DNA from: Gammaproteobacteria bacterium
Lineage (GTDB): Bacteria > Pseudomonadota > Gammaproteobacteria > SZUA-229
Length of the DNA: 22,788 nucleotides
Reading direction: 5' to 3'
Assembly (NCBI GenBank): GCA_024278435.1
Contig: JAJRTD010000142.1
Location: 1 to 22,788 of the forward strand
The notes under the pieces are model-generated. The model made no database searches. It was not told the DNA's origin and saw only the letters and a list, made by a program, of their open reading frames with translations. Numbering within the stretch: position 1 is the first letter of the stretch; each line of letters opens with the position of its first letter. Below are positions 2,894 to 18,877 of this stretch, one piece after another. Both the position numbers and the translations under genes were made by a program.

Positions 2894-3877
2894 TTACTTG
2901 ACCACTACATTAATACCACTGGGGGGGAGTGGTGCGTTGGGAAGCAACGGCGTCGTAGATATTACAAAATCATCAATCAACCATTCGGTTTCAACAGCAT
3001 ACTCATCATTGTGATACCCCATTAAATAACCCGCACCCCATCCATTATACCCAGCAGCAATTGACTCATTTGAAATATCACAATCTATATTTTCATATCC
3101 AGTGATGTACTCAAAATTAGCATCTCCCTTCCATCTACGGTACATCTTTACAAGGCCATCACGAGCACCATTTTTTGATGAGGCTTTAAAATGAAATATT
3201 ACTTGCATCCAACGACCAGAATCTGTAGGCGTCACAAAGCCCTGGTATGGCTGAGATTCAGGCGTAAACTGAGTTCCACGATTCGAAACCTGAAGCTGCA
3301 TTGACATGCTATAAGGAACTGTAGACGGACGGTCTTTAACCTCTACAAACGTAGACTTATAGTTAAAAAGATTTGATTTCGAATTCATTCCAAAAATCAT
3401 CCATTTATTATTGGAGTTTCTGTTAGATCCTGAGCCAGTACGCTTATAGTTCATCGGCACTCTTATCCAATACGATATCCAAACTTCTGGATATCCCTTT
3501 TTCATGTCAAATTCTTGTTCTACAAATGCTGAGTCATCTCCTTTGCCAGTTGCCTGATACTTGAATCGCAAGCTATTTTTTCCATCCTGCGCAGCATACT
3601 CCCTCGGGGTCCCATCAGGCAGCTTAGGACTAAATACCTGATACTTGCGACCTTCCCAGCTTGTAAAAATACTTACTGGCCCATCATCAGGATCTTGCGT
3701 AACTATACTTATGCGATCATTTTCTCCCGATGGAATCCACTCAAACTTATCAGCATTTGTTGACAACAAATCACCTGACTCGAAAGAATCTGAAAAAATC
3801 ACCTCCGCACCTGCGGTTGTCACCACCATATGCAGAGAAAAAAATAAAAGTATAGAAAAGGTATTGACGTTAATCAT
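2894..3877 (-). CDS. Secreted concanavalin-like / polysaccharide-lyase-like protein
   Basis: A 327-residue exported protein. Residues 1-24 form a signal peptide (hydrophobic core ILLFFSLHMVV, cleavage expected after TAGA), and the mature part begins with a FSDSFESGD segment. That opening is common in secreted beta-jelly-roll proteins of the concanavalin A-like lectin/glucanase fold and in the heparin lyase/alginate lyase-like PF14099 group. Supporting pattern: the strand EVWISYWIRVP near residue 130, a tryptophan-rich core, and a closing strand EWLIDDFVIST. A ribosome binding site GGGTGGA lies seven bases before the ATG. It could trim or bind the EPS outside the cell; the catalytic residues cannot be assigned, so enzyme activity is unproven. 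There is no C-terminal PEP-CTERM anchor. The next - strand gene lies about 400 bases upstream, so it probably has its own promoter. Confidence 0.7.
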   Translation of the reverse strand: MINVNTFSILLFFSLHMVVTTAGAEVIFSDSFESGDLLSTNADKFEWIPSGENDRISIVTQDPDDGPVSIFTSWEGRKYQVFSPKLPDGTPREYAAQDGKNSLRFKYQATGKGDDSAFVEQEFDMKKGYPEVWISYWIRVPMNYKRTGSGSNRNSNNKWMIFGMNSKSNLFNYKSTFVEVKDRPSTVPYSMSMQLQVSNRGTQFTPESQPYQGFVTPTDSGRWMQVIFHFKASSKNGARDGLVKMYRRWKGDANFEYITGYENIDCDISNESIAAGYNGWGAGYLMGYHNDEYAVETEWLIDDFVISTTPLLPNAPLPPSGINVVVK

Positions 3878-4278: not shown

Positions 4279-5847
4279 TCATCGTTTTGTCAACTCCCTC
4301 GATTTTATAATTTCAGTTAAAGCATTATCTATTGCCTGAAAACAGTCATCAAAGAAGACATCCGGCTTGCCATACGGGTCATCAATAATAATTGACGGAT
4401 TTTTTTTCATCAGACCCAGCAAAATCACCTGGCAGGAGCTACCATCAACTTCCTTAAATAATTTCACATGCCACGGCTCCATACAAATAACAAGATCGTT
4501 ATCATTAATTTTGACAGAATCATAAAGCTTGGCCTTGTGCCCTTCAAGATTCACGCCTCGATAAAGCGCGCGCCTTAGCGCATCTGAATTAGCCGGCGAA
4601 CCCTCCTTAGTGTACAAGCCCATTGATACCGCTTTGGCCCCTAGTTGTTTGGCTTTTATCTCTGCGTAAGGACTACGGCATATATTCCCTTTACAGACAA
4701 AGACTAGTCGCGAAACATTCGTCCAATCTATATTCTTATAGCGCTCGTAAAACCTCAGCCTATACTTAATTAATATAATAATATTAAAAAGCAACTTTCT
4801 TTTTACAGTGTGTCGCACCTTGAATTTAATCTTTCTTATAAAACTGCTCACAGATTCGAAGCCAGAACAATATTGCACCAAGTCCTCAACATTAGAAGGA
4901 AAGCTCATCCTTTTTATTAAATATTTATCGGCCTCTGCGGCATCATTAAAACTTACATAACCGGGTTCAGCAGTCACCGCTCCCGCCAAGCAAGCCGATT
5001 TAATATAATCAACATCTCTATAAATGAAATCCTCATTACGTCCTGTAGGATAGGCAAAAACCGGGCACGGCTGATCAAGCTTCTCTCTTAGCATATTCCA
5101 TGACTGCTCAATCTCATCATATGCCTGATCATCAGTACATTGAGACAGAATATAATGATTAACAGCATGCGGACCAAATGATATCCCCTGCTTTTCTAGC
5201 TTACGCGCCATATCCCAACTCAAAGGTTTTGCGCAATCCTTCAAAAACACTGTTGGTACAGTACTTAAATAACCTGACAACGCTCTCATCACCTTTTCAA
5301 GCTCTGCAATCGGTAGTTTTTTACAGGCACCTCTTAAGGTTGCCATAGATTTGTACCTTCTTACCGGATCAGCAATATTATAGGTTACCTTTTCTCCGTT
5401 AATTTCAACGGTAATTTTATCTTCTTCTGTATTGTAGAGAACAAATTTAAGAAAACAGTCCCAAGGCGGGGTTCCTTTATCTACAAAATCAGTTATAAGA
5501 AAAATTGTTGCAGGACATTGATGCTTTATAAACACAGGCGCTGCGACTTCCGCCTGTTCGATATAACCATCATCCAAAGTGAAGGCAACAGCCTTTTTAA
5601 GCGGTTTTTCACCACTATTGATATTACGGACAATTTCATCCAGCGATACCAGGTTATAACCTTTCTTTCTTAAATGAGTTAGCGCCCGATCTAGAAACTC
5701 CGCTGAATGCCCCTTTTCAATCACACCGGGGGCTGACATACGATGCATCATAAAAATAACGGCTTTGTTCTGTAGGCTTGGGAATGCACCTTTCAGGTAC
5801 AACCACTCCCATGTATATACCAGTATTCTTTTAAGATAGCTTTTCAT
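4279..5847 (-). CDS. NodB-type polysaccharide deacetylase fused to low-molecular-weight protein-tyrosine phosphatase
   Basis: One uninterrupted frame of 522 residues from the ATG at 5845-5847. The frame stays open upstream to a TTG at 5961, but those 38 residues look non-native, and MKSYLKRILVY is a more natural start. The N-terminal domain (about 20-290) is a carbohydrate esterase 4/NodB deacetylase: FMMHR, the metal-binding TLDDG, and an H-x3-H pair in GPHAVNH. A basic linker (about 325-375) leads to a low-molecular-weight tyrosine phosphatase domain. This has the P-loop CKGNICR (Cys385, Arg391, a perfect C-x5-R followed by SP) and the general acid in DPYG (Asp490). Stand-alone phosphatases of this class (Wzb-like) dephosphorylate BY-kinases of EPS export. 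No signal peptide is seen, so both domains are probably cytoplasmic. The gene is AT-rich and diverges from the ATP-grasp gene. Confidence 0.85.
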   Translation of the reverse strand: MKSYLKRILVYTWEWLYLKGAFPSLQNKAVIFMMHRMSAPGVIEKGHSAEFLDRALTHLRKKGYNLVSLDEIVRNINSGEKPLKKAVAFTLDDGYIEQAEVAAPVFIKHQCPATIFLITDFVDKGTPPWDCFLKFVLYNTEEDKITVEINGEKVTYNIADPVRRYKSMATLRGACKKLPIAELEKVMRALSGYLSTVPTVFLKDCAKPLSWDMARKLEKQGISFGPHAVNHYILSQCTDDQAYDEIEQSWNMLREKLDQPCPVFAYPTGRNEDFIYRDVDYIKSACLAGAVTAEPGYVSFNDAAEADKYLIKRMSFPSNVEDLVQYCSGFESVSSFIRKIKFKVRHTVKRKLLFNIIILIKYRLRFYERYKNIDWTNVSRLVFVCKGNICRSPYAEIKAKQLGAKAVSMGLYTKEGSPANSDALRRALYRGVNLEGHKAKLYDSVKINDNDLVICMEPWHVKLFKEVDGSSCQVILLGLMKKNPSIIIDDPYGKPDVFFDDCFQAIDNALTEIIKSRELTKR

Positions 5848-5975
5848 ATCATCTGTCTTACTTTCATCTTCATTGCCAGTCTTGCCTATATCAATAGCCT
5901 GGATATCACCATCTCGGTACCACCACAATCTGATGACAAGCCACCCAACTATAACAGGCAATTCGTAATATTTGA

Positions 5976-6059: not shown

Positions 6060-7238
6060 ATGAAAAGAGCTCTTGTTCTAGATTCAAATCAGCGCAGCGC
6101 CCTGGCAGTAACTCGCTCACTTGGCAAGCAGGGCGTTCCTGTCTTTACCACGGAGGAAACCGCTCCAGCACTAGCCGGCGCTTCACGGTACAGCCGGCAG
6201 CATTTTACCTGCCCCTCGCCCGCACAGGAACCCAAAAAATTTATTGAATACCTGACTGGGCTCGTTAGCAGACTACAGATCGACATCCTGCTACCTATGA
6301 CTGAACTAACCACAACCTTGCTGCTCCTAAATCAGGAAGCTTTCCCATCTACGCTTATCCCTTTTGCCGATGCAAACACCGTCGACGCACTGGCCAACAA
6401 GTGCCACCTGATGCAAACGGCCGGCTCGCTTGATATTCCCGTGCCGCTCACCTGGTACGCAGACAATGCAAGCAACCTTCCCGACAAGCTAGAGAACCTG
6501 CCATACCCACTGGTACTCAAACCAGGCAAATCCTGGGTTTTTTACAACAACCAGTGGCGGCGAGCCGCCGTGAAGTTTGCTCAGACCCCCGCAGAAGCGC
6601 AAAACATTATTGACACATACTGGGCCTTTCAGACCCTCCCGTTTATGCTGCAAGCATCCGTGGAAGGCCATGGCGCCGGGGTATTCGCTATTTACGACCA
6701 TGGACGGCCACTGGCTTTTTTCGCCCATAAGCGGTTGCGGGAAAAACCACCCAGCGGCGGTGTCAGCGTCCTTTCTGAAAGCGTAGCCGTCGACCCAGTG
6801 CAGGGTATCTATGCACGCAAACTACTGGACAATGCCGCCTGGCACGGGGTTGCCATGGTCGAGTTCAAGGTCACACCAGATGGCACACCGTATTTAATGG
6901 AGATCAACACCCGTTTCTGGGGCTCTTTGCAGCTTTCTATCGACTCCGGCGTGGATTTCCCCTGGCTGTTGTATCAGGTGAGCTGTGGTGAGCAGGCAAA
7001 CGCTGTTACTGACTACAAAACTGAGAACCGCTTGCGCTGGCTGCTGGGCGATCTCGACAGCCTGTACCTGACATTTAAAAACAGGCAGGCACCGGTTGGC
7101 AAAAAGCTGGTCGCCCTGCTTCGCTTTTTAACTCCCTCACCGCTACGCACCCGACACGAGATAAACCGTATTGGCGATATGGGACCCTTCTGGTATGAAT
7201 TACGCCAGTATATGCGCGATATACTGGGAAAATCCTGA
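6060..7238 (+). CDS. ATP-grasp family ligase
   Basis: A 392-residue cytoplasmic protein with the three-part ATP-grasp arrangement. It has an N-terminal pre-ATP-grasp domain (residues 1-110; ALVLDSNQRSALAVTRSLGK, PMTELTT) and a central ATP-binding subdomain with YPLVLKPGKSW (about 150-160). The C-terminal part carries the Mg/ATP ligands in VAMVEFKVTPDG and YLMEINTRFWGS (about 280-300). ATP-grasp enzymes activate a carboxylate as acyl-phosphate and join it to an amine, thiol or other nucleophile. Members of the carboxylate-amine ligase type often occur in EPS and exosortase loci, but their substrate is generally undefined. It is flanked by divergent and convergent glycan genes and appears to be a single-gene transcript with its own TATAAT promoter. 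It is GC-richer than the genes to its left. The ribosome binding site is weak. Confidence 0.85.
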   Translation: MKRALVLDSNQRSALAVTRSLGKQGVPVFTTEETAPALAGASRYSRQHFTCPSPAQEPKKFIEYLTGLVSRLQIDILLPMTELTTTLLLLNQEAFPSTLIPFADANTVDALANKCHLMQTAGSLDIPVPLTWYADNASNLPDKLENLPYPLVLKPGKSWVFYNNQWRRAAVKFAQTPAEAQNIIDTYWAFQTLPFMLQASVEGHGAGVFAIYDHGRPLAFFAHKRLREKPPSGGVSVLSESVAVDPVQGIYARKLLDNAAWHGVAMVEFKVTPDGTPYLMEINTRFWGSLQLSIDSGVDFPWLLYQVSCGEQANAVTDYKTENRLRWLLGDLDSLYLTFKNRQAPVGKKLVALLRFLTPSPLRTRHEINRIGDMGPFWYELRQYMRDILGKS

Positions 7239-7327: not shown

Positions 7328-8431
7328 TCAGGCAACCTCATCATACAGATATCGGTACTGTCTGAGCATTACCTCGATATCATAGGTTTCGATGGCATAC
7401 TGTTTCGCGTTCTGCGCCATTTTTTCCCGTAACTCACTATCGCTTGCTACCTTTTCCAGGGCATCGGCAATCGCTTCCGGGTTTTGCGCATCAATAAGCA
7501 CACCAGTCTCCCCCTCCCTGATCAAACCCACGTAACCACCCACACGCGTGGCAACAATGGCGCGCGCCGCCACCATGGCCTGTATTGCCGAAAGCGGCAG
7601 ACCTTCGGTAACGGACGATGACAGAAAGATATCGATACCGGCGAGGAACTCGCCGGCATCATCGGTAAAGCCCAGGAACTGTACGATTTCATTAAGACCC
7701 AGCTCTTTTCTAAGAGCCAGTAGCGAATCATACAGCCCCCCCTTTCCCTGACCGGCGATTACAAAACGAAACGGAATTTCACGATTTTTCAACAGGGCAG
7801 CCGCCTTCAACAAGATATCGTAAGCTTTTGCCGGTCGGATATTACCCAGACTACCGACAATAATTTCATTATTATGCCAGCCGAACCGATCTCGTATTGC
7901 AATGGACGGTGGACGAATATAAGCACCTGTTTCAATGCCATTATAAACAACCACGCTTTTTTTCCGGCTAAGTGAGGTGCGACTGATAATATCCTGCAAA
8001 AGACTGTCGGTAACTGCCACGATACGTCTGGAACCCATATTAATAGCGGCGAATTTCAGGCCGACCAGACGTTCATTCGGCTTAATATCCACTTCGCCAT
8101 GAAAGGTAGCGATTACCGGCCTGCCGGTGATCAGGCCCGCCAGAGAGCAGTATACATTTGCGCCCAGCAGGTGCGACTGGATCAGATCAACCCCCTTCTC
8201 CCGAATAAGCCTGCGCAACCCCATCAGGTAAGAAACATTAAAAGAGCCCCTGGCATCAAGCAGAATCGGCTGCACACCTCTACGACAGAGCTCTTCGTAA
8301 ACCCAGCCCTTGCCACGTATCACCACCACTGAACGATATTTATCCGCTGGCAGACGTGTTGCCAGATCAATAAATACCGTCTCTGCGCCACCCGGACCGG
8401 TGGTATCAATAATATGCAGAATAGTCTTCAT
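7328..8431 (-). CDS. Glycosyltransferase family 4 protein with E-x7-Q motif
   Basis: A 367-residue GT-B glycosyltransferase. The N-terminal domain opens with HIIDTTGPGGAE, the usual glycine-rich acceptor-side loop. The C-terminal domain has IVGSLGNIRPAK (nucleotide-sugar loop), the QFLGFTDD segment, and SSVTEGLPLSAIQAM followed by AIVATRVGG. In this family the last motif is normally E-x7-E; here the second Glu is Gln (Glu276 and Gln284, codon CAG). The protein would transfer a hexose or related sugar from a nucleotide donor during repeat-unit assembly. It is convergent with the ATP-grasp gene (89-bp gap with a nine-base C run) and divergent from the deacetylase at 8525. No strong ribosome binding site precedes the ATG. 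Specificity is unknown. Confidence 0.87.
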   Translation of the reverse strand: MKTILHIIDTTGPGGAETVFIDLATRLPADKYRSVVVIRGKGWVYEELCRRGVQPILLDARGSFNVSYLMGLRRLIREKGVDLIQSHLLGANVYCSLAGLITGRPVIATFHGEVDIKPNERLVGLKFAAINMGSRRIVAVTDSLLQDIISRTSLSRKKSVVVYNGIETGAYIRPPSIAIRDRFGWHNNEIIVGSLGNIRPAKAYDILLKAAALLKNREIPFRFVIAGQGKGGLYDSLLALRKELGLNEIVQFLGFTDDAGEFLAGIDIFLSSSVTEGLPLSAIQAMVAARAIVATRVGGYVGLIREGETGVLIDAQNPEAIADALEKVASDSELREKMAQNAKQYAIETYDIEVMLRQYRYLYDEVA

Positions 8432-8524: not shown

Positions 8525-9556
8525 ATGGCAAACAGCCCGTCAGTTAAACGTATAGTCAAGCGTAGCCTACAGCATATAGCCGCCGCTTTCGGTCCACACA
8601 GGCGCACACCAAAAGAGCCAGTACTCCTTGTATTAATGTATCACCGCATACTGCCGGAAAATGATACCCGCGCCAAACTTGAGGAGCCGGGCATGATGGT
8701 AACACCAGAAACCTTCAGAATGCACATGCAGCTGGTAAAACAATACTTTGACGTATTACCACTTTCACAATGGATCGATTACAAAAACAATGACAAAGCC
8801 CTGCCGCCACGCTGTTGCGCGATCACCTTTGATGACGGCTGGGCAGACAACTACGAGTTTGCCTACCCTGTACTGAAAGAACTCCGACTGCCCGCTACTA
8901 TTTTTCTGGTATCGGACATGATCGGCACGAATCGACTTTTCTGGCCCGAACGCGTGGCACACACATTAGCCACTATCGCCAATCACTGCCCCGACAAGTG
9001 GAACGATCCCTGCCTTGCATGGCTTAAATTCAATAATATCGGCTATAACTACGGTTCAACACCTCCCGACAAAGAGCAGTTGAGCGCGCTGATCGGACAG
9101 ATAAAAGCGTTAACCGATGAGGATATTCATTCCCGCCTGGACAATATTGCCGCCACCTTAAACCTGACCATTCAAACCCAACCAGCACTTCTAGGCTGGG
9201 ATCAGGTTATCGAAATGCACCAGTCCGGCTTAATCGAGACCGGCAGCCACACCTGCAACCACATACGCCTGACCAGTGGTCAGAACAGTGACACACTGAT
9301 GCACGAAGTTATTGACAGCCACTCAACCATTGAAAAAAATACCGGTGCACCAGTGACTGCTTTCTGCTACCCAAACGGTGATCATTGCCCCGAAGCCGTT
9401 ACGCTGGTCAGAAAAAACTACGCCTGCGCCGTCACAACCCACAAAGGCTGGAATACCTGCCACACCAATGTGCATACCATGAACCGCATTGCCATACATG
9501 AAGACATCAGTGCCGACGAAACCGCTTTTCTTGCCCGTATTTCCGGCTGGCTATAA
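8525..9556 (+). CDS. Polysaccharide deacetylase (NodB homology domain)
   Basis: A 343-residue carbohydrate esterase family 4 protein that would remove N-acetyl groups from the EPS or its lipid-linked precursor. Motifs in order: VLMYHRIL (about 36-43), the metal-binding TFDDGW (101-106), PATIFLVSD (about 121-129), an H-x3-H pair in GSHTCNH that completes the Asp-His-His metal site, and FCYPNG near 285. There is no clear signal peptide; the N-terminus is basic, so a cytoplasmic or membrane-surface location is likely. The stop lies six bases before the ATG of the FemAB gene, so the two form an operon. The 93-bp gap to the divergent glycosyltransferase should hold its promoter; I could not pick one with confidence. 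Confidence 0.88.
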   Translation: MANSPSVKRIVKRSLQHIAAAFGPHRRTPKEPVLLVLMYHRILPENDTRAKLEEPGMMVTPETFRMHMQLVKQYFDVLPLSQWIDYKNNDKALPPRCCAITFDDGWADNYEFAYPVLKELRLPATIFLVSDMIGTNRLFWPERVAHTLATIANHCPDKWNDPCLAWLKFNNIGYNYGSTPPDKEQLSALIGQIKALTDEDIHSRLDNIAATLNLTIQTQPALLGWDQVIEMHQSGLIETGSHTCNHIRLTSGQNSDTLMHEVIDSHSTIEKNTGAPVTAFCYPNGDHCPEAVTLVRKNYACAVTTHKGWNTCHTNVHTMNRIAIHEDISADETAFLARISGWL

Positions 9557-9562
9557 CACCCG

Positions 9563-10090
9563 ATGCCAGACACTCACAACAAAAAACAAATACTGCACAA
9601 CCCTGCCGCCGCCTACACAGCTTTGCTCAGCACCAGTGACGTAGCGCCACAGCAGTTGTTAGACCTTGCCCAACAGCGGCAACAGCTACAGCAACAGGCC
9701 GACAATCAACAACTGGAGAATAAAAAACTTTCACGCCGCATTGGCGAGGCCAAGAAAGCAGGTAGTGACATGGACACACTGGACAGACTTCTTAATGAGA
9801 TGAAAACCGGCAGCGCCACATTTAAACAACTTAAAGCCGAACAGGCCGTAGTCGAAGACAACATCCTGTCATTTTTCCGGAACAATAAAACCACCGAAAG
9901 CGACACCAACAAGACCGTTGTAGGCGAGCTCCCCAGGCGCCTCCACCTGCGTTCTAACATCAGCATCGACAGCGTTTCCATTCATGAGCTATCAGGCCCT
10001 CTGACAGAGTGGAACCATTATGTTAAACAACACCCAGATGGATGCATCCATCATCGCAGCGAATGGAACCATCTTGCAAAGCACTTATAA
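9563..10090 (+). pseudogene. FemAB-family aminoacyltransferase, 5' part (SerRS-like arm plus start of FemAB domain), frameshifted
   Basis: This 175-codon frame contains two parts. Residues about 23-105 are a helical, Gln/Glu/Lys-rich coiled coil with LSRRIGEAKKAG in its middle. They closely resemble the antiparallel tRNA-binding arm at the N-terminus of seryl-tRNA synthetase (family pattern LSKEIG-AKK-G followed by a second helix). Residues about 135-170 (TEWNHYVKQHPDG, HRSEW) are the beginning of the FemAB domain of exosortase-associated proteins, which then breaks off at a TAA. The rest continues in the +1 frame from about 10073-10090. The combined span 9563-10997 is one base longer than a multiple of three, consistent with a one-base insertion in a 477-residue gene. 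It follows the deacetylase by six bases. It may be a true pseudogene or a sequencing or assembly error. Confidence 0.72.
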
Positions 10091-10997
10091 TCACAACTGT
10101 CTGTACCTTTTTGCCCGCAACCACAAGGAGGGCATCTGCGGCGTACTGCCGCTGGTACAGCTAAACAGCCGCTTGTTCGGTAATCTGCTGGTTTCCATGC
10201 CCTGGTTCCAGCGCGGCGGCGCGCTGGCCGACAACCCGGCAATAGAAGACAGACTAATGGCCGCCGCCGCAGAGCATGCGACCGTGCTTGGCTGTGAGCA
10301 CATTGAATACCGCGACAACATTCCCCGCGAGGCGCTACCGGTCAACACCCACAAGGTCAACATGGTGCTATCATTACCGACGGAGGCTGAACAGCTTTGG
10401 CAGCAATTCAAACCGAAACTACGAGCGCAGATCAAGCGCTCGCAGCGAGCGCAACCGGCAATACATTTTGGCCGTGAAGAGCTACTGGATGATTTTTACC
10501 GTATTTACAGCCGTAATATGCGCGACCTGGGTTCACCAGTTCACAACAAGGCGCTGATAGCAACTATTCTGCGGCAGTTCCCGGACAACAGCTGGCTGGC
10601 AGTTGTTTATTTACACCACAAACCTGTTTCTGCCGGTTTCCTGCTGGCCGACAAAGACACCATGGAAATCCCGCTGGCATCAACCATTCGCAATGCGAAT
10701 CATCTGAGCATCAACATGTTTCTTTACTGGGAAATACTTCAGTTTGCCATCCAGCAGGGATACCGTCACTTTGACTTCGGCCGCTCAACCCGTGGTGCCG
10801 GTACCTATAACTTCAAGAAACAGTGGGGGGCAAGACCCATGCTGTTGTACTGGCATTACTGGCTGCACGAAGATACTGAACTACCGGGGCTTAATCCGGA
10901 CAACCCGAAATTCAAGCTGGTTATTGCCGCGTGGAAACGTCTGCCAGTCTGGCTCAGCCGGCTGCTCGGCCCGGCTATCGTCAAAAATATTCCCTGA
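10020..10997 (+). CDS. FemAB-family (XrtA/PEP-CTERM-associated) aminoacyltransferase, main part
   Basis: This frame carries the bulk of a FemAB-type GNAT-fold enzyme: GVLPLVQLNSRLFG and SMPWFQRGG, IKRSQRAQ, then FDFGRSTRGAGTYNFKKQWG near the C-terminus. These segments match the FemAB proteins that accompany exosortase systems (TIGR03019 type). FemAB enzymes transfer amino acids from aminoacyl-tRNA to an amine, classically in peptidoglycan cross-bridges; the acceptor in EPS loci is unknown. The ATG at 10020 is only where the frame happens to open; the first 20 or so codons are out of frame with the homologous N-terminus, which lies in the preceding frame (9563-10090). If the frameshift is real, translation here would need internal initiation and would lack the N-terminal strands. 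The gene converges on the DUF3473 deacetylase with a 42-base gap and no visible terminator. Confidence 0.75.
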   Translation: MLNNTQMDASIIAANGTILQSTYNHNCLYLFARNHKEGICGVLPLVQLNSRLFGNLLVSMPWFQRGGALADNPAIEDRLMAAAAEHATVLGCEHIEYRDNIPREALPVNTHKVNMVLSLPTEAEQLWQQFKPKLRAQIKRSQRAQPAIHFGREELLDDFYRIYSRNMRDLGSPVHNKALIATILRQFPDNSWLAVVYLHHKPVSAGFLLADKDTMEIPLASTIRNANHLSINMFLYWEILQFAIQQGYRHFDFGRSTRGAGTYNFKKQWGARPMLLYWHYWLHEDTELPGLNPDNPKFKLVIAAWKRLPVWLSRLLGPAIVKNIP

Positions 10998-11039: not shown

Positions 11040-11900
11040 TCAGGCACTATCTCTGTCGAAAAGCCCCAGGCTATTCAGGACATCCTCACAGGTAGTAAAA
11101 CTAAAATCATCCAGCAGTCGTTCCAGCCTGTGTTCACACTTGTGCAGATTGTTGTAATGTCTGAATCTAGAAAACGCACTGGCCTCAATGCGCGGCTGAT
11201 CCGAATCCACTTCCCAGGGGTGCAGATAAAAAACGAAAGGGCAGCCGCGATTATTCACTTGCCGCAAACCGAATCGGGTTAGCCAGTAAGGATAAAGCCG
11301 AAAATAACCGCCACCCGCCACCGGCATCTTGTAATTCAATATTCTGGCGGTCGATAGCGGAAACTCCACTAACGTATATCCGGCGGGCGTCGTTAGCGTA
11401 TGCGGAGTCTCTTCAGCGCCTGGTATGCCGTAGCGATCATGACGCACTGGAAAAATACTCGAATCATATTTAAATCCTTCTTCAGCAAGAATATCCAGAG
11501 CCCACAGGGATTTTCTGGTAATGGAATAACTTGCCGCACGGTAACCTTTAACTTCAGTACCAGCAAGTTCTTCCAGCAATGCTTTTGACCGCCGAGTTTC
11601 ATCCCGAAAAACTTCCGGCGTCTGGTTATAAATCAGCTGATGACTGAAACCATGACTGGCTACTTCATGTCCACGCAAGGCAATTTCCCTGACCAGTTGC
11701 GGCTCTCTTTCCGCCACCCAGCCAAGGATAAAAAACGTGGCTTTAACACCCGCCTTCTCAAAAAGATCCAGCAACAGATGGGTATTTCTTTCAACCCGAC
11801 GTGGATGCAGATCCCAGTCTTCATGGTTGATGCTTTTTGCGAAAGCAGAGACCTGGAAGTAATCCTCTACATCAACAGTAAGTGCATTATTTATATCCAT
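11040..11900 (-). CDS. XrtA-associated polysaccharide deacetylase (DUF3473 type)
   Basis: A 286-residue deacetylase of the kind found in exosortase/EPS loci (TIGR03006 type). The frame remains open to 11972, but the ATG at 11898-11900 gives the expected opening ALTVDVEDYFQ, and the extra 24 residues overlap the preceding gene. The NodB domain has VDVEDYF in place of the usual TFDDG (Asp10 to Phe15), then KATFFILGWVAE, the HGFSH metal pair, and GYRAASYSI. The C-terminal DUF3473 part includes GGGYFRLYP and FYLHPWEVD. It would deacetylate amino sugars of the EPS. It is the last gene of the - strand operon, starting 13 bases after the kinase stop. Confidence 0.9.
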   Translation of the reverse strand: MDINNALTVDVEDYFQVSAFAKSINHEDWDLHPRRVERNTHLLLDLFEKAGVKATFFILGWVAEREPQLVREIALRGHEVASHGFSHQLIYNQTPEVFRDETRRSKALLEELAGTEVKGYRAASYSITRKSLWALDILAEEGFKYDSSIFPVRHDRYGIPGAEETPHTLTTPAGYTLVEFPLSTARILNYKMPVAGGGYFRLYPYWLTRFGLRQVNNRGCPFVFYLHPWEVDSDQPRIEASAFSRFRHYNNLHKCEHRLERLLDDFSFTTCEDVLNSLGLFDRDSA

Positions 11901-11913
11901 TGCTGACAGTAAT

Positions 11914-12789
11914 TTATTCTTCTGAACCGTAATAACTGTAATAATAACTACTGCGCCCGGAGAAACCTTCACTCTTATTCATGATCAAACCCACAGCCTG
12001 ATCTTCAGGCATCATCTCCAAAGCCTCTTCCACTGCCGCTTGCGGAGTCTTCCCTGCTTCAATTACGAACACAACCTGTCCGACCAGTGCGGTCAGCACC
12101 TGAGTTTGCGGTGTCGGCAATAACGGCGGCCCATCAAAAATTATAATGCGATCATCGTAGCGCTCCCCGATTTCCGCTACGAGATCAGCCATACGCTGAC
12201 TGGCCAGAAGCTCGGTTACAAACTCGTGCTGCTTGCCTGCCGACAACAGGCATAACTGAGGGACGTCCGTGGTCATCATGGAATCCCCCACCGTAAAACC
12301 ATCGGTTTCGATTACGTCAATCAGACCCGGGCGATCCGCGATACCCAGCGCCCTACTGGTGCCGTGCCGGGTTACATCACAATCAACCAGCAACACCGTA
12401 TGATCCCGCTCACTGGCAATTGACAGTGCCAGATTAATAGCCGTATGCGTTTTACCTTCGCCAGGTAATGCACTGGTTACCAGAATCAGGTTACCTTTTT
12501 CTACCAGCGATGAAGATTTGCCGAAAGCGTTCGACAATAAAGGGCGCTTAATACGACGATATTCGTCAAAAAACAAAGGCGGTAGCTTTGTACCCTTGAC
12601 AAGCATATTCATATCTCGTAGTCGATCCTGAACCAGAACTCGTCCCGATTCTACTACCGTAGACACAGAACTATATCGTTCCCCTCTCGACTTCTGAAAG
12701 AACCGGCTGCTATTCTCACACTCATCGGCAGAATTGACCAACTCGATAATCGTATCGCTATTAGAATTATTGTCCGTGATCTGCTTCAT
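11914..12789 (-). CDS. XrtA-associated tyrosine autokinase (BY-kinase)
   Basis: A 291-residue cytoplasmic P-loop kinase that pairs with the chain-length determinant just upstream to control EPS polymerisation, as the split Wzc/CapB systems do. Motifs: Walker A ALPGEGKT (107-114), Walker A' VLLVDCD (132-138), Walker B IIIFDGPP (215-222), and a C-terminal tyrosine cluster (Tyr282, 283, 284, 286, 287) that is the expected autophosphorylation site. I chose the ATG at 12787-12789 because an AGGGGG ribosome binding site lies about ten bases upstream and the longer frame overlaps the preceding gene. The gap to the chain-length stop is four bases. A low-molecular-weight tyrosine phosphatase domain that could reverse its phosphorylation is encoded in the same window at 4279-5847. 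Confidence 0.92.
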   Translation of the reverse strand: MKQITDNNSNSDTIIELVNSADECENSSRFFQKSRGERYSSVSTVVESGRVLVQDRLRDMNMLVKGTKLPPLFFDEYRRIKRPLLSNAFGKSSSLVEKGNLILVTSALPGEGKTHTAINLALSIASERDHTVLLVDCDVTRHGTSRALGIADRPGLIDVIETDGFTVGDSMMTTDVPQLCLLSAGKQHEFVTELLASQRMADLVAEIGERYDDRIIIFDGPPLLPTPQTQVLTALVGQVVFVIEAGKTPQAAVEEALEMMPEDQAVGLIMNKSEGFSGRSSYYYSYYGSEE

Positions 12790-17350: not shown

Positions 17351-18877
17351 TTACTCAACTGCCCTGCCCGTTAATGAAACAGCATCTAGTGGCTTGTGCA
17401 TATCCAGAACAAATCTCTCCAAAACCTGCCTGGAGGCCGATATATCTGTTTTTATCTGCGTGGAAACAGCCACCAGATAGGCCTCCGGCCGACCTATAAC
17501 AAGCCCCGCCAGTTGCAAGACCTTGCCTGCATACCGGCTTACCGTTACCCGACCGCCAATGTTATACCAGTACCAAACAATGCGCTCGGTTTTATCATGA
17601 CGCAGCCGCTGTTCCAGCACTGTGCGCCCATTCACCTTCAAACTGCGCGGATGCGCATAAACCTCACTCCAGTCTTCCATTTCGGCAATCTTATTACTCA
17701 TGTTTACAAGCTCCGACCCCTGCTGCTGGTGCACGTAGTAAGCAATATATAAACTAACCCTACTGTCTTCAAGCTGGTAATCACGCCTGACGGTAACCGC
17801 GCCTGTATACACCGGGTGCCAGTTATTGCTACTGACCAGAGGCCCTTTCCAGCCTTCATCTCCAACCGGCAGACCCAGGCTCACAGTAGTCGCGTCAATC
17901 TGGTGCGGCGTCATGACATAAAAAGCAACGGGGCCAGCTGCCACTGCCGCCACCAAAAGAAAAACCGGCAGTGGCAGCGACGGGCATCCAACCGAACATC
18001 CCGTATGTGATACTGCCGGCTCGGCAACAAAACCATCATCAACAAAAGAGAAACGGCGACTCAGGGCGCCGTCTATAAACAGCAAAACAGCTATCAGTCC
18101 GCCAAATAAATACCACCCCAACATCATATGGTCGGCTATCATGGGATGCTGCATATCTGTCGCATAACCCAGATACACTACGATGACGACACGCATTATA
18201 TTTGCCACTATGGCCGTGGCCGCCGCTACCATTATCACCACTATACGGGCCAGCATACTGGTGTAGTTAAGGTAAGAATAAAGGGTTCCCAGCGTCAACG
18301 CGGCCAGCAGATAACGCTGACCGCCACAGGACTCTTCCACGGAAAGAGCACCCGCAGGAACAATAATCATATTTTCCTCGAGAAACGCAGGCACATTGAT
18401 CAGGCGGATAACGCCAAAGGCCGCATCAGCCGTCAGATCCTGCAAAAACGGCCCCAGGGGAAACCAGATGGGAATTGCCAGAAAAATAAAAAGTACCGGA
18501 AACATGAGTTGACGGGCCACCTGGCGCCCAAAGATGGTCCAGAGTATACCCAGCAGGATAAACGGCAAGGCAACCAGCTGGACAATCATCACATTCACCA
18601 GCGCCGCCAGCAACCATAGCAGACTGGCAAACAGCACTAGCAGTATAGGCATATAGGCCGGACAAGGAACAAGAGCCGCCAGTCGCTCACGTTTGAGATA
18701 AACAAGGTACAGCGAGATTGCAACAACCAGATAACCATGGCCGTAATCGCCTTCACTGAACTCACTCCACCTACGCAACAGGTAAAACAACGGCTGCCAA
18801 TAGAACACAGCAGACGACAGCAGCAAAAGGCCCAGCGCCAACAGGGCACGAGGCCATGCAGCATTTAACAGCCTCAT
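17351..18877 (-). CDS. Exosortase fused to EpsI domain
   Basis: A 508-residue inner-membrane transpeptidase-like protein. Residues 1-275 are the multi-helix exosortase (EpsH) domain with the Cys-Arg-His triad: Cys184 in VEESCGG, Arg229 in ANIMR, His250 in DHMMLGW. Exosortases are thought to cleave C-terminal PEP-CTERM sorting signals of secreted proteins. After a further helix (about 303-322), residues 325-500 form the EpsI domain. The neighbours prsK, prsR and prsT point to the XrtA (EpsH1) class, but the sequence around the cysteine reads CGGQR where XrtA proteins usually have C-S-G-[IL]-R, so I leave the subclass open. The start codon overlaps the prsR stop by four bases (ATGA), indicating translational coupling. 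No PEP-CTERM substrate is encoded in this window. Confidence 0.92.
   Translation of the reverse strand: MRLLNAAWPRALLALGLLLLSSAVFYWQPLFYLLRRWSEFSEGDYGHGYLVVAISLYLVYLKRERLAALVPCPAYMPILLVLFASLLWLLAALVNVMIVQLVALPFILLGILWTIFGRQVARQLMFPVLFIFLAIPIWFPLGPFLQDLTADAAFGVIRLINVPAFLEENMIIVPAGALSVEESCGGQRYLLAALTLGTLYSYLNYTSMLARIVVIMVAAATAIVANIMRVVIVVYLGYATDMQHPMIADHMMLGWYLFGGLIAVLLFIDGALSRRFSFVDDGFVAEPAVSHTGCSVGCPSLPLPVFLLVAAVAAGPVAFYVMTPHQIDATTVSLGLPVGDEGWKGPLVSSNNWHPVYTGAVTVRRDYQLEDSRVSLYIAYYVHQQQGSELVNMSNKIAEMEDWSEVYAHPRSLKVNGRTVLEQRLRHDKTERIVWYWYNIGGRVTVSRYAGKVLQLAGLVIGRPEAYLVAVSTQIKTDISASRQVLERFVLDMHKPLDAVSLTGRAVE

Follow-up and report, generated by a model that had tools for sequence, protein, structure and literature searches.

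A seryl-tRNA synthetase-type N-terminal arm on a subgroup of exosortase-associated FemAB transferases

We analysed a 22,788-nucleotide stretch of DNA from a gammaproteobacterial genome bin (assembly GCA_024278435.1, contig JAJRTD010000142.1; hereafter the window) that carries a gene for a FemAB transferase with an N-terminal arm of the kind found in seryl-tRNA synthetase (SerRS). The gene begins with a 175-amino-acid open reading frame (ORF; 9563-10090) that starts 6 bases past the end of a polysaccharide deacetylase gene (8525-9556). It is split by a frameshift near position 10085, as an earlier note on this DNA had recognised, and the second frame is open through 10997 (Table 1). The frameshift may be genuine or an assembly error. 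The ORF, the motif LSRRIGEAKKAG and the two-helix pattern described in the earlier note are all present; the arm lies where the note had put it, at 9629-9877, but judged from the predicted helices the domain is slightly longer, at about 9572-9889.

The Pfam family PF02403 (Seryl_tRNA_N), a search with which had been suggested in the earlier note, matched the window ORF with 36.8 bits (E 4.9e-9), above the curated gathering cut-off of 28.2 bits. The match spans residues 7-104 and profile positions 4-100 of 108, and includes both the coiled coil and the small N-terminal portion that precedes it. When the 54 genomes of the window's family were scanned with PF02403 at E 0.001, the window ORF scored 37.6 bits, and 62 places were found: 46 SerRS genes (93-112 bits), 11 armed FemAB genes and five further places. 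One of the five was a 47-position N-terminal piece in a 51-amino-acid frame (37.2 bits); the other four, at 20.7-22.6 bits, all fell below the cut-off and were taken as chance level, and one of these (G064:C51), on visual inspection, is the coiled coil at the start of a porin-like protein. Of the 11 armed genes, two also fell below the cut-off (G050, 23.9 bits; G061, 20.7 bits), and the armed proteins L212 (21.8 bits), L173 (21.2 bits) and G061 score in the chance range. We accepted these low-scoring arms because they are kin to better-scoring ones, not on their own scores.

We also searched in the opposite direction, using a profile of 13 FemAB arms. In the 54 whole genomes this profile found 57 places, of which 11 were the armed FemABs, at 95-144 bits, and the other 46 scored 23-41 bits. 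These 46 coincide with the places to which PF02403 gives 93-112 bits, the SerRS genes, and full-length comparison also confirmed ten of them (L140-L149); no place besides armed FemABs and SerRS genes was found in these whole genomes. An arm hidden Markov model (HMM) run over 3060 ORFs of the collected loci likewise listed only armed FemABs and SerRS genes. With strict thresholds, which miss diverged arms, matches were found in 8 of 369 class genomes and 2 of 398 phylum genomes: armed FemABs in G000 (present in both samples), G205 and G231, and six others identified as SerRSs by full-length comparison.

Profile-profile comparison of the 13 FemAB arms with 10 SerRS N-termini from the same genome family gave a probability of 96.3% over 74 columns, and comparison of 118 arms (from the proteins of alignment A1) with 28 SerRSs gave 95.8%, also over 74 columns. 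Against the PDB, the first seven sequences found with the arm profile were SerRSs (6.5e-7 to 0.002; best other sequence, 0.004), and in a profile of the whole protein the core matched FemX and the arm matched SerRS. Weaker results came from a single-sequence PDB search, which reached SerRS at E 0.017, from NCBIfam serS, which scored 14.3 bits and ranked after another coiled-coil family, and from an HMM of 28 close SerRSs, which recovered 8 of the 13 armed genes at E 0.01. A protein search with the 175-amino-acid ORF alone, confined to proteins of similar length, gave no match, nor did a scan of named genomes with this ORF; the named-genome scan with alignment A1 succeeded. By these comparisons, the resemblance to SerRS is clear for family profiles and faint for single sequences. 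We regard the arm as homologous to the N-terminal arm of SerRS, so that the likeness drawn in the earlier note is borne out by the PF02403, profile-profile, reciprocal and PDB searches.

The best-kept stretch in the 118 arms is the tip, S-R-x-I-G-x-A-K (S 97%, R 97%, I 98%, G 100%, A 94%; K 79% with R 19%). At this position, SerRSs encoded by the same genomes mostly have KSIGKAKAAGED; FemAB arms have not retained the 'RN' that precedes the tip in SerRS. Among 40 armed loci in named genomes (from the best 80 of 559 relatives), a strict tip pattern fits 25, another 11 have S-x-x-I-G by eye, and four are without IG. The tip IG is lost in arms L173, L199, L219 and L223, strain HTCC2143 included. 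In the Marinobacter loci L212, L214, L217 and L225, the arm is shortened N-terminally, with the tip motif kept or nearly so.

AlphaFold2 placed helices in the window arm at residues 4-12, 14-21, 30-65 and 70-109, with block pLDDT values of 83-98, giving a confident hairpin rather than a single disordered or unrelated helix. An intact armed FemAB of 477 amino acids is encoded elsewhere in the bin, on a contig of 4.2 kb (G000:C277, L002/L103; the bin is 84.74% complete, with 3.65% contamination), and its AlphaFold2 model also has a confident two-helix arm, with a pLDDT of 40 in block 111-120 in the linker. The arm is a separate N-terminal module, as had been claimed, in contrast to FemA, whose arm lies within domain 2. 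We set structure aside as the chief proof of a SerRS arm because unrelated helical hairpins match the model equally well. The G000:C277 copy shares its arm and the type of its upstream deacetylase with the window copy but has a different deacetylase downstream, and in the core tree it falls in another subclade; it may be a paralogue or come from a contig of another strain.

Pfam, NCBIfam and fold all assign the body of the protein to FemAB rather than to a class II synthetase catalytic domain. The second frame alone exceeded the curated TIGR03019 cut-off of 260.35 bits (Table 1), and the intact relative scored 384.6 bits. The core start in the first frame scored 12.1 bits (E 0.074), which is weak by itself; its columns W150, Y153 and W168 are invariant in the 81 rows of alignment A4. 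In the predicted structure the core has the double-GNAT FemX fold, and its nearest solved structures are aminoacyl-tRNA enzymes, with CoA-type entries scoring lower; PF13480, the Pfam family that matches the core, bears the name Acetyltransferase. Residues F417 and K418 of the intact relative align with Phe304 and Lys305 of Weissella viridescens FemX, and the Phe-Lys pair is invariant in 120 of 120 proteins. In a set of 60 armed and unarmed rows that included the window's second frame, FK was present in 59 and YK in one. Since nearly all armed and unarmed rows have FK, this donor-site pair does not tell the two apart.

We next asked how widely the arm is carried, a survey that the earlier note had called for. 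In the window's family, 11 armed FemABs were present in 10 of the 54 genomes, and TIGR03019 exceeded its cut-off in 17. In a class-wide sample it did so in 59 of 274 genomes, three of them armed (G000, G205 and G231) and 56 without a seen arm. For these 59 genomes, 30 loci and 11 further regions were checked with the arm model, and the remaining genomes (except the window's own) were called unarmed by frame length, at most 398 amino acids against 443 for the shortest armed frame seen, a reasoning that would overlook a frameshifted arm like that of the window. In named genomes, 40 of 80 loci carried an arm scoring at least 20 bits (E at most 1.2e-5); the loci were the top 80 among 559 relatives found with an armed query, and the armed share is therefore no frequency. 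Armed loci were found in Marinobacter algicola, M. halophilus, M. changyiensis, M. denitrificans, gamma proteobacterium HdN1, HTCC2143, Granulosicoccaceae, Spongiibacteraceae, Cellvibrionales and others. The class sample and the named loci led us to reject the idea that all TIGR03019 proteins have the arm.

Of the 120 top database relatives, 118 extend far enough at the N-terminus to accommodate an arm, and 92, by hand count, have a precomputed PF02403 assignment. In a plasmid collection, 21 records matched but none over 80% of the query; in the ten matches listed, only the core was covered, from residue 131-137 on. In a tree of 60 cores, the 13 armed rows formed one clade with an SH-aLRT of 99 and no unarmed row inside. 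In a 123-row tree, 50 armed-labelled rows required a single change, with a support of 7; one armed row, L162, fills 24% of the columns. By sequence comparison the arm marks a subgroup of TIGR03019, and the trees are compatible with, without proving, a single origin.

Table 1. Features of the window around the armed FemAB gene. Counts out of 13 refer to the armed loci, several contigs of which are too short to show the GT4 or ATP-grasp genes.
Feature	Position	Strand	Basis or remark
SerRS-type N-terminal arm, residues 4-109 (two short helices and antiparallel two-helix hairpin)	9572..9889	+	PF02403; AlphaFold2
Tip motif LSRRIGEAKKAG, residues 56-67	9728..9763	+	Best-kept arm stretch, common to SerRS
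Flexible linker from arm to transferase	9890..10006	+	AlphaFold2 block pLDDT 53-73
Start of FemAB transferase, first frame	10007..10087	+	TIGR03019 profile 2-26 at residues 149-173
Remaining FemAB (TIGR03019) transferase, second frame	10068..10994	+	330.6 bits, profile 23-330
Polysaccharide deacetylase (Polysacc_deac_1)	8525..9556	+	78 bits
XrtA-system polysaccharide deacetylase (TIGR03006), convergent with FemAB gene	11040..11972	-	409.7 bits
GT4 glycosyltransferase	7328..8431	-	Near armed gene in 11/13 loci
ATP-grasp protein (ATPgrasp_Ter)	6060..7238	+	Near armed gene in 9/13 loci
Exosortase A with C-terminal EpsI-type domain	17351..18877	-	TIGR03109 228.2 bits (cut-off 208); TIGR02914 91.9 bits (cut-off 42.8)

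The window is an XrtA/PEP-CTERM polysaccharide locus, with XrtA, PrsT, the TIGR03006 deacetylase and a chain-length protein all over their cut-offs. By eye, the deacetylase upstream of the FemAB gene has the motifs TFDDG and SHTCNH and no N-terminal hydrophobic stretch, a reading that suggests a cytosolic enzyme. In the window's clade, a deacetylase of this type (8525-like) immediately precedes the armed gene at 12 of the 13 loci (all but G018), and a second deacetylase is downstream at ten of the 13 (not in the window, G024 or G231). The ATP-grasp protein, which is lacking in G062 although the stretch continues there, is possibly a second amino-acid or acyl ligase of the pathway. In named genomes, a deacetylase lies just upstream on the same strand in 22 of 40 armed loci (15 TIGR03006-like, seven 8525-like; the other 18 have no reference gene), compared with 22 of 38 unarmed loci (21 TIGR03006-like, one 8525-like; 16 without). 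These similar counts indicate that deacetylases accompany the whole family. Where an armed Marinobacter gene has a reference gene immediately before it, that gene is of the TIGR03006 type, as it is for most unarmed genes. We therefore rejected a tie between the arm and one gene order, which holds in the window's clade only.

No tRNA gene was found in the window. A 560-amino-acid frame on the minus strand (4279-5961) combines a PF01522 deacetylase with a PF01451 low-molecular-weight tyrosine phosphatase, and in relatives it is matched by shorter separate frames. A 327-amino-acid protein, also encoded on the minus strand (2894-3877), has no Pfam match at E 0.01 and, by eye, an N-terminal hydrophobic stretch.

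We propose, with a probability of about 0.5, that the gene encodes a FemX-type aminoacyltransferase that recruits tRNA in cis through its SerRS-type arm and acts in the XrtA/PEP-CTERM exopolysaccharide locus, with Ser-tRNA as the leading donor and an amino sugar as the leading acceptor. FemX-type enzymes are described as moving an amino acid from the tRNA 3' end to an amine (PMC4964394, PMC12945691). The arm would grip the outer corner of an aminoacyl-tRNA as it does in SerRS (the long variable arm and the 19-56 corner), and the flexible linker would let the tRNA 3' end reach the FemX-type active site, so that one tRNA would be held at both ends. Lys418 of the intact relative (Lys305 of FemX) would then help to pass the amino acid to a free amine. 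The leading candidate donor would be Ser-tRNA(Ser) because the ancestry of the arm is SerRS, and the acceptor may be an amino sugar of a lipid-linked exopolysaccharide precursor whose amine has been freed by the neighbouring, putatively cytosolic deacetylase. That the arm binds tRNA is, by homology, quite probable; that serine is the donor, an argument from ancestry, has roughly an even chance, and an amino-sugar acceptor has somewhat less than an even chance. More tentatively, and as a longer shot, a serine-tRNA-selecting domain may have been captured once from SerRS to make a dedicated seryltransferase that decorates exopolysaccharide amino sugars with serine. The earlier note took the arm as support for a tRNA-dependent reaction in the exosortase-associated FemAB family at large; this holds directly for the armed subgroup, and for unarmed proteins only through family kinship and the Phe-Lys pair.

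Alternatively, the arm may bind tRNA without being specific for tRNA(Ser), recognising the tRNA corner in general or some other tRNA that has a long variable arm, in which case the donor would be another amino acid. tRNA(Gly) has no long variable arm, which counts for this alternative, as do the absence of the SerRS 'RN' from FemAB arms and the shorter arms in Marinobacter. The helical arm of FemA, moreover, has been suggested to form a Gly-tRNA site (PMC4964394). However, the tip S-[RK]-x-I-G-x-A-K is common to SerRS and most of the 118 arms, which makes the ancestor of the arm a serine-tRNA module, and we consider a non-serine tRNA unlikely. Less likely again is a SerRS-derived arm that now serves as a protein-protein module, for dimerisation, for docking on a glycosyltransferase or deacetylase, or for regulation. 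The equally good fit of many unrelated helical hairpins to the model is consistent with such a role, as is the loss of the tip motif in 4 of the 40 named armed loci; conservation is nevertheless highest at the tip, and the solved structures closest to the fold that bears the arm are those of enzymes using aminoacyl-tRNA.

The protein might also be an ordinary CoA-dependent N-acyltransferase of the HfsK type with the arm as a bystander, a reading suggested by the name of PF13480 and by HfsK itself, a FemX-like holdfast polysaccharide protein termed a putative acetyltransferase, its donor not known. We judge this improbable, given that CoA-type entries score lower against the core than aminoacyl-tRNA enzymes and that the armed clade of 13 contains no unarmed row. 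The four places at 20.7-22.6 bits that are neither SerRS nor FemAB, together with the weak single-sequence PDB and NCBIfam serS results, could be taken to mean that the likeness to SerRS is a chance coiled-coil match. The probability of this is negligible: the window ORF scores well above those places with PF02403, and the reciprocal searches, specific in the 54 genomes and among the 3060 ORFs, rule a chance match out.

No paper on an arm-FemAB fusion was found in the mostly open-access literature; a FemAB gene appears in a table of a biofilm locus (PMC3684757). The two-domain architecture is visible in database Pfam assignments yet, as far as our searches go, is not discussed. The donor and acceptor of exosortase-associated FemAB proteins are likewise not established, as far as the literature found shows. 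A SerRS-type arm on a FemAB subgroup names a testable donor, with genes in named genomes (Marinobacter, HdN1), and the fusion shows how a tRNA-selecting module can move from a synthetase to another enzyme. If the dedicated-seryltransferase reading is correct, the reaction would be a modification outside peptidoglycan that depends on tRNA and takes place at the polymer level, the tRNA being selected in cis by a synthetase's own arm.

Several known systems share parts of this arrangement. Within TIGR03019, the window core is a member over the curated cut-off, whereas most members in the class sample show no arm. FemX of W. viridescens, with UDP-MurNAc-pentapeptide as acceptor and Ala-tRNA as donor, has no arm, and in FemA of Staphylococcus aureus the arm (residues 246-307) is inserted in domain 2 and not placed N-terminally (PMC4964394). 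The available portions of the sources on VlmA, DhpH-C, PacB and the streptothrisamine-related Sbb17/Sba18, which belong to natural-product pathways, mention no SerRS arm. In the Caulobacter holdfast, HfsK and HfsH likewise pair a FemX-like acyltransferase with a polysaccharide deacetylase on one exopolysaccharide, and transfer by HfsK to amines exposed by HfsH was proposed (PMC5362036). HfsK differs in being a c-di-GMP effector with an unknown acyl donor, and the portion of that paper available mentions no such arm; a caveat to the analogy is that hfsK and its paralogues are reported to be without effect on the Hirschia baltica holdfast (PMC8449245). With the SerRS N-terminal domain (PF02403), the FemAB arm shares the N-terminal helices, the antiparallel two-helix arm and the tip S-K/R-x-I-G-x-A-K. 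By contrast with SerRS, it is joined by a flexible linker to a GNAT-type transferase instead of a synthetase domain, and it has no 'RN' before a tip that is often more basic. In human cells, SerRS is described as acting in trans as a tRNA(Ser) selection factor for METTL6 (PMC11479938).
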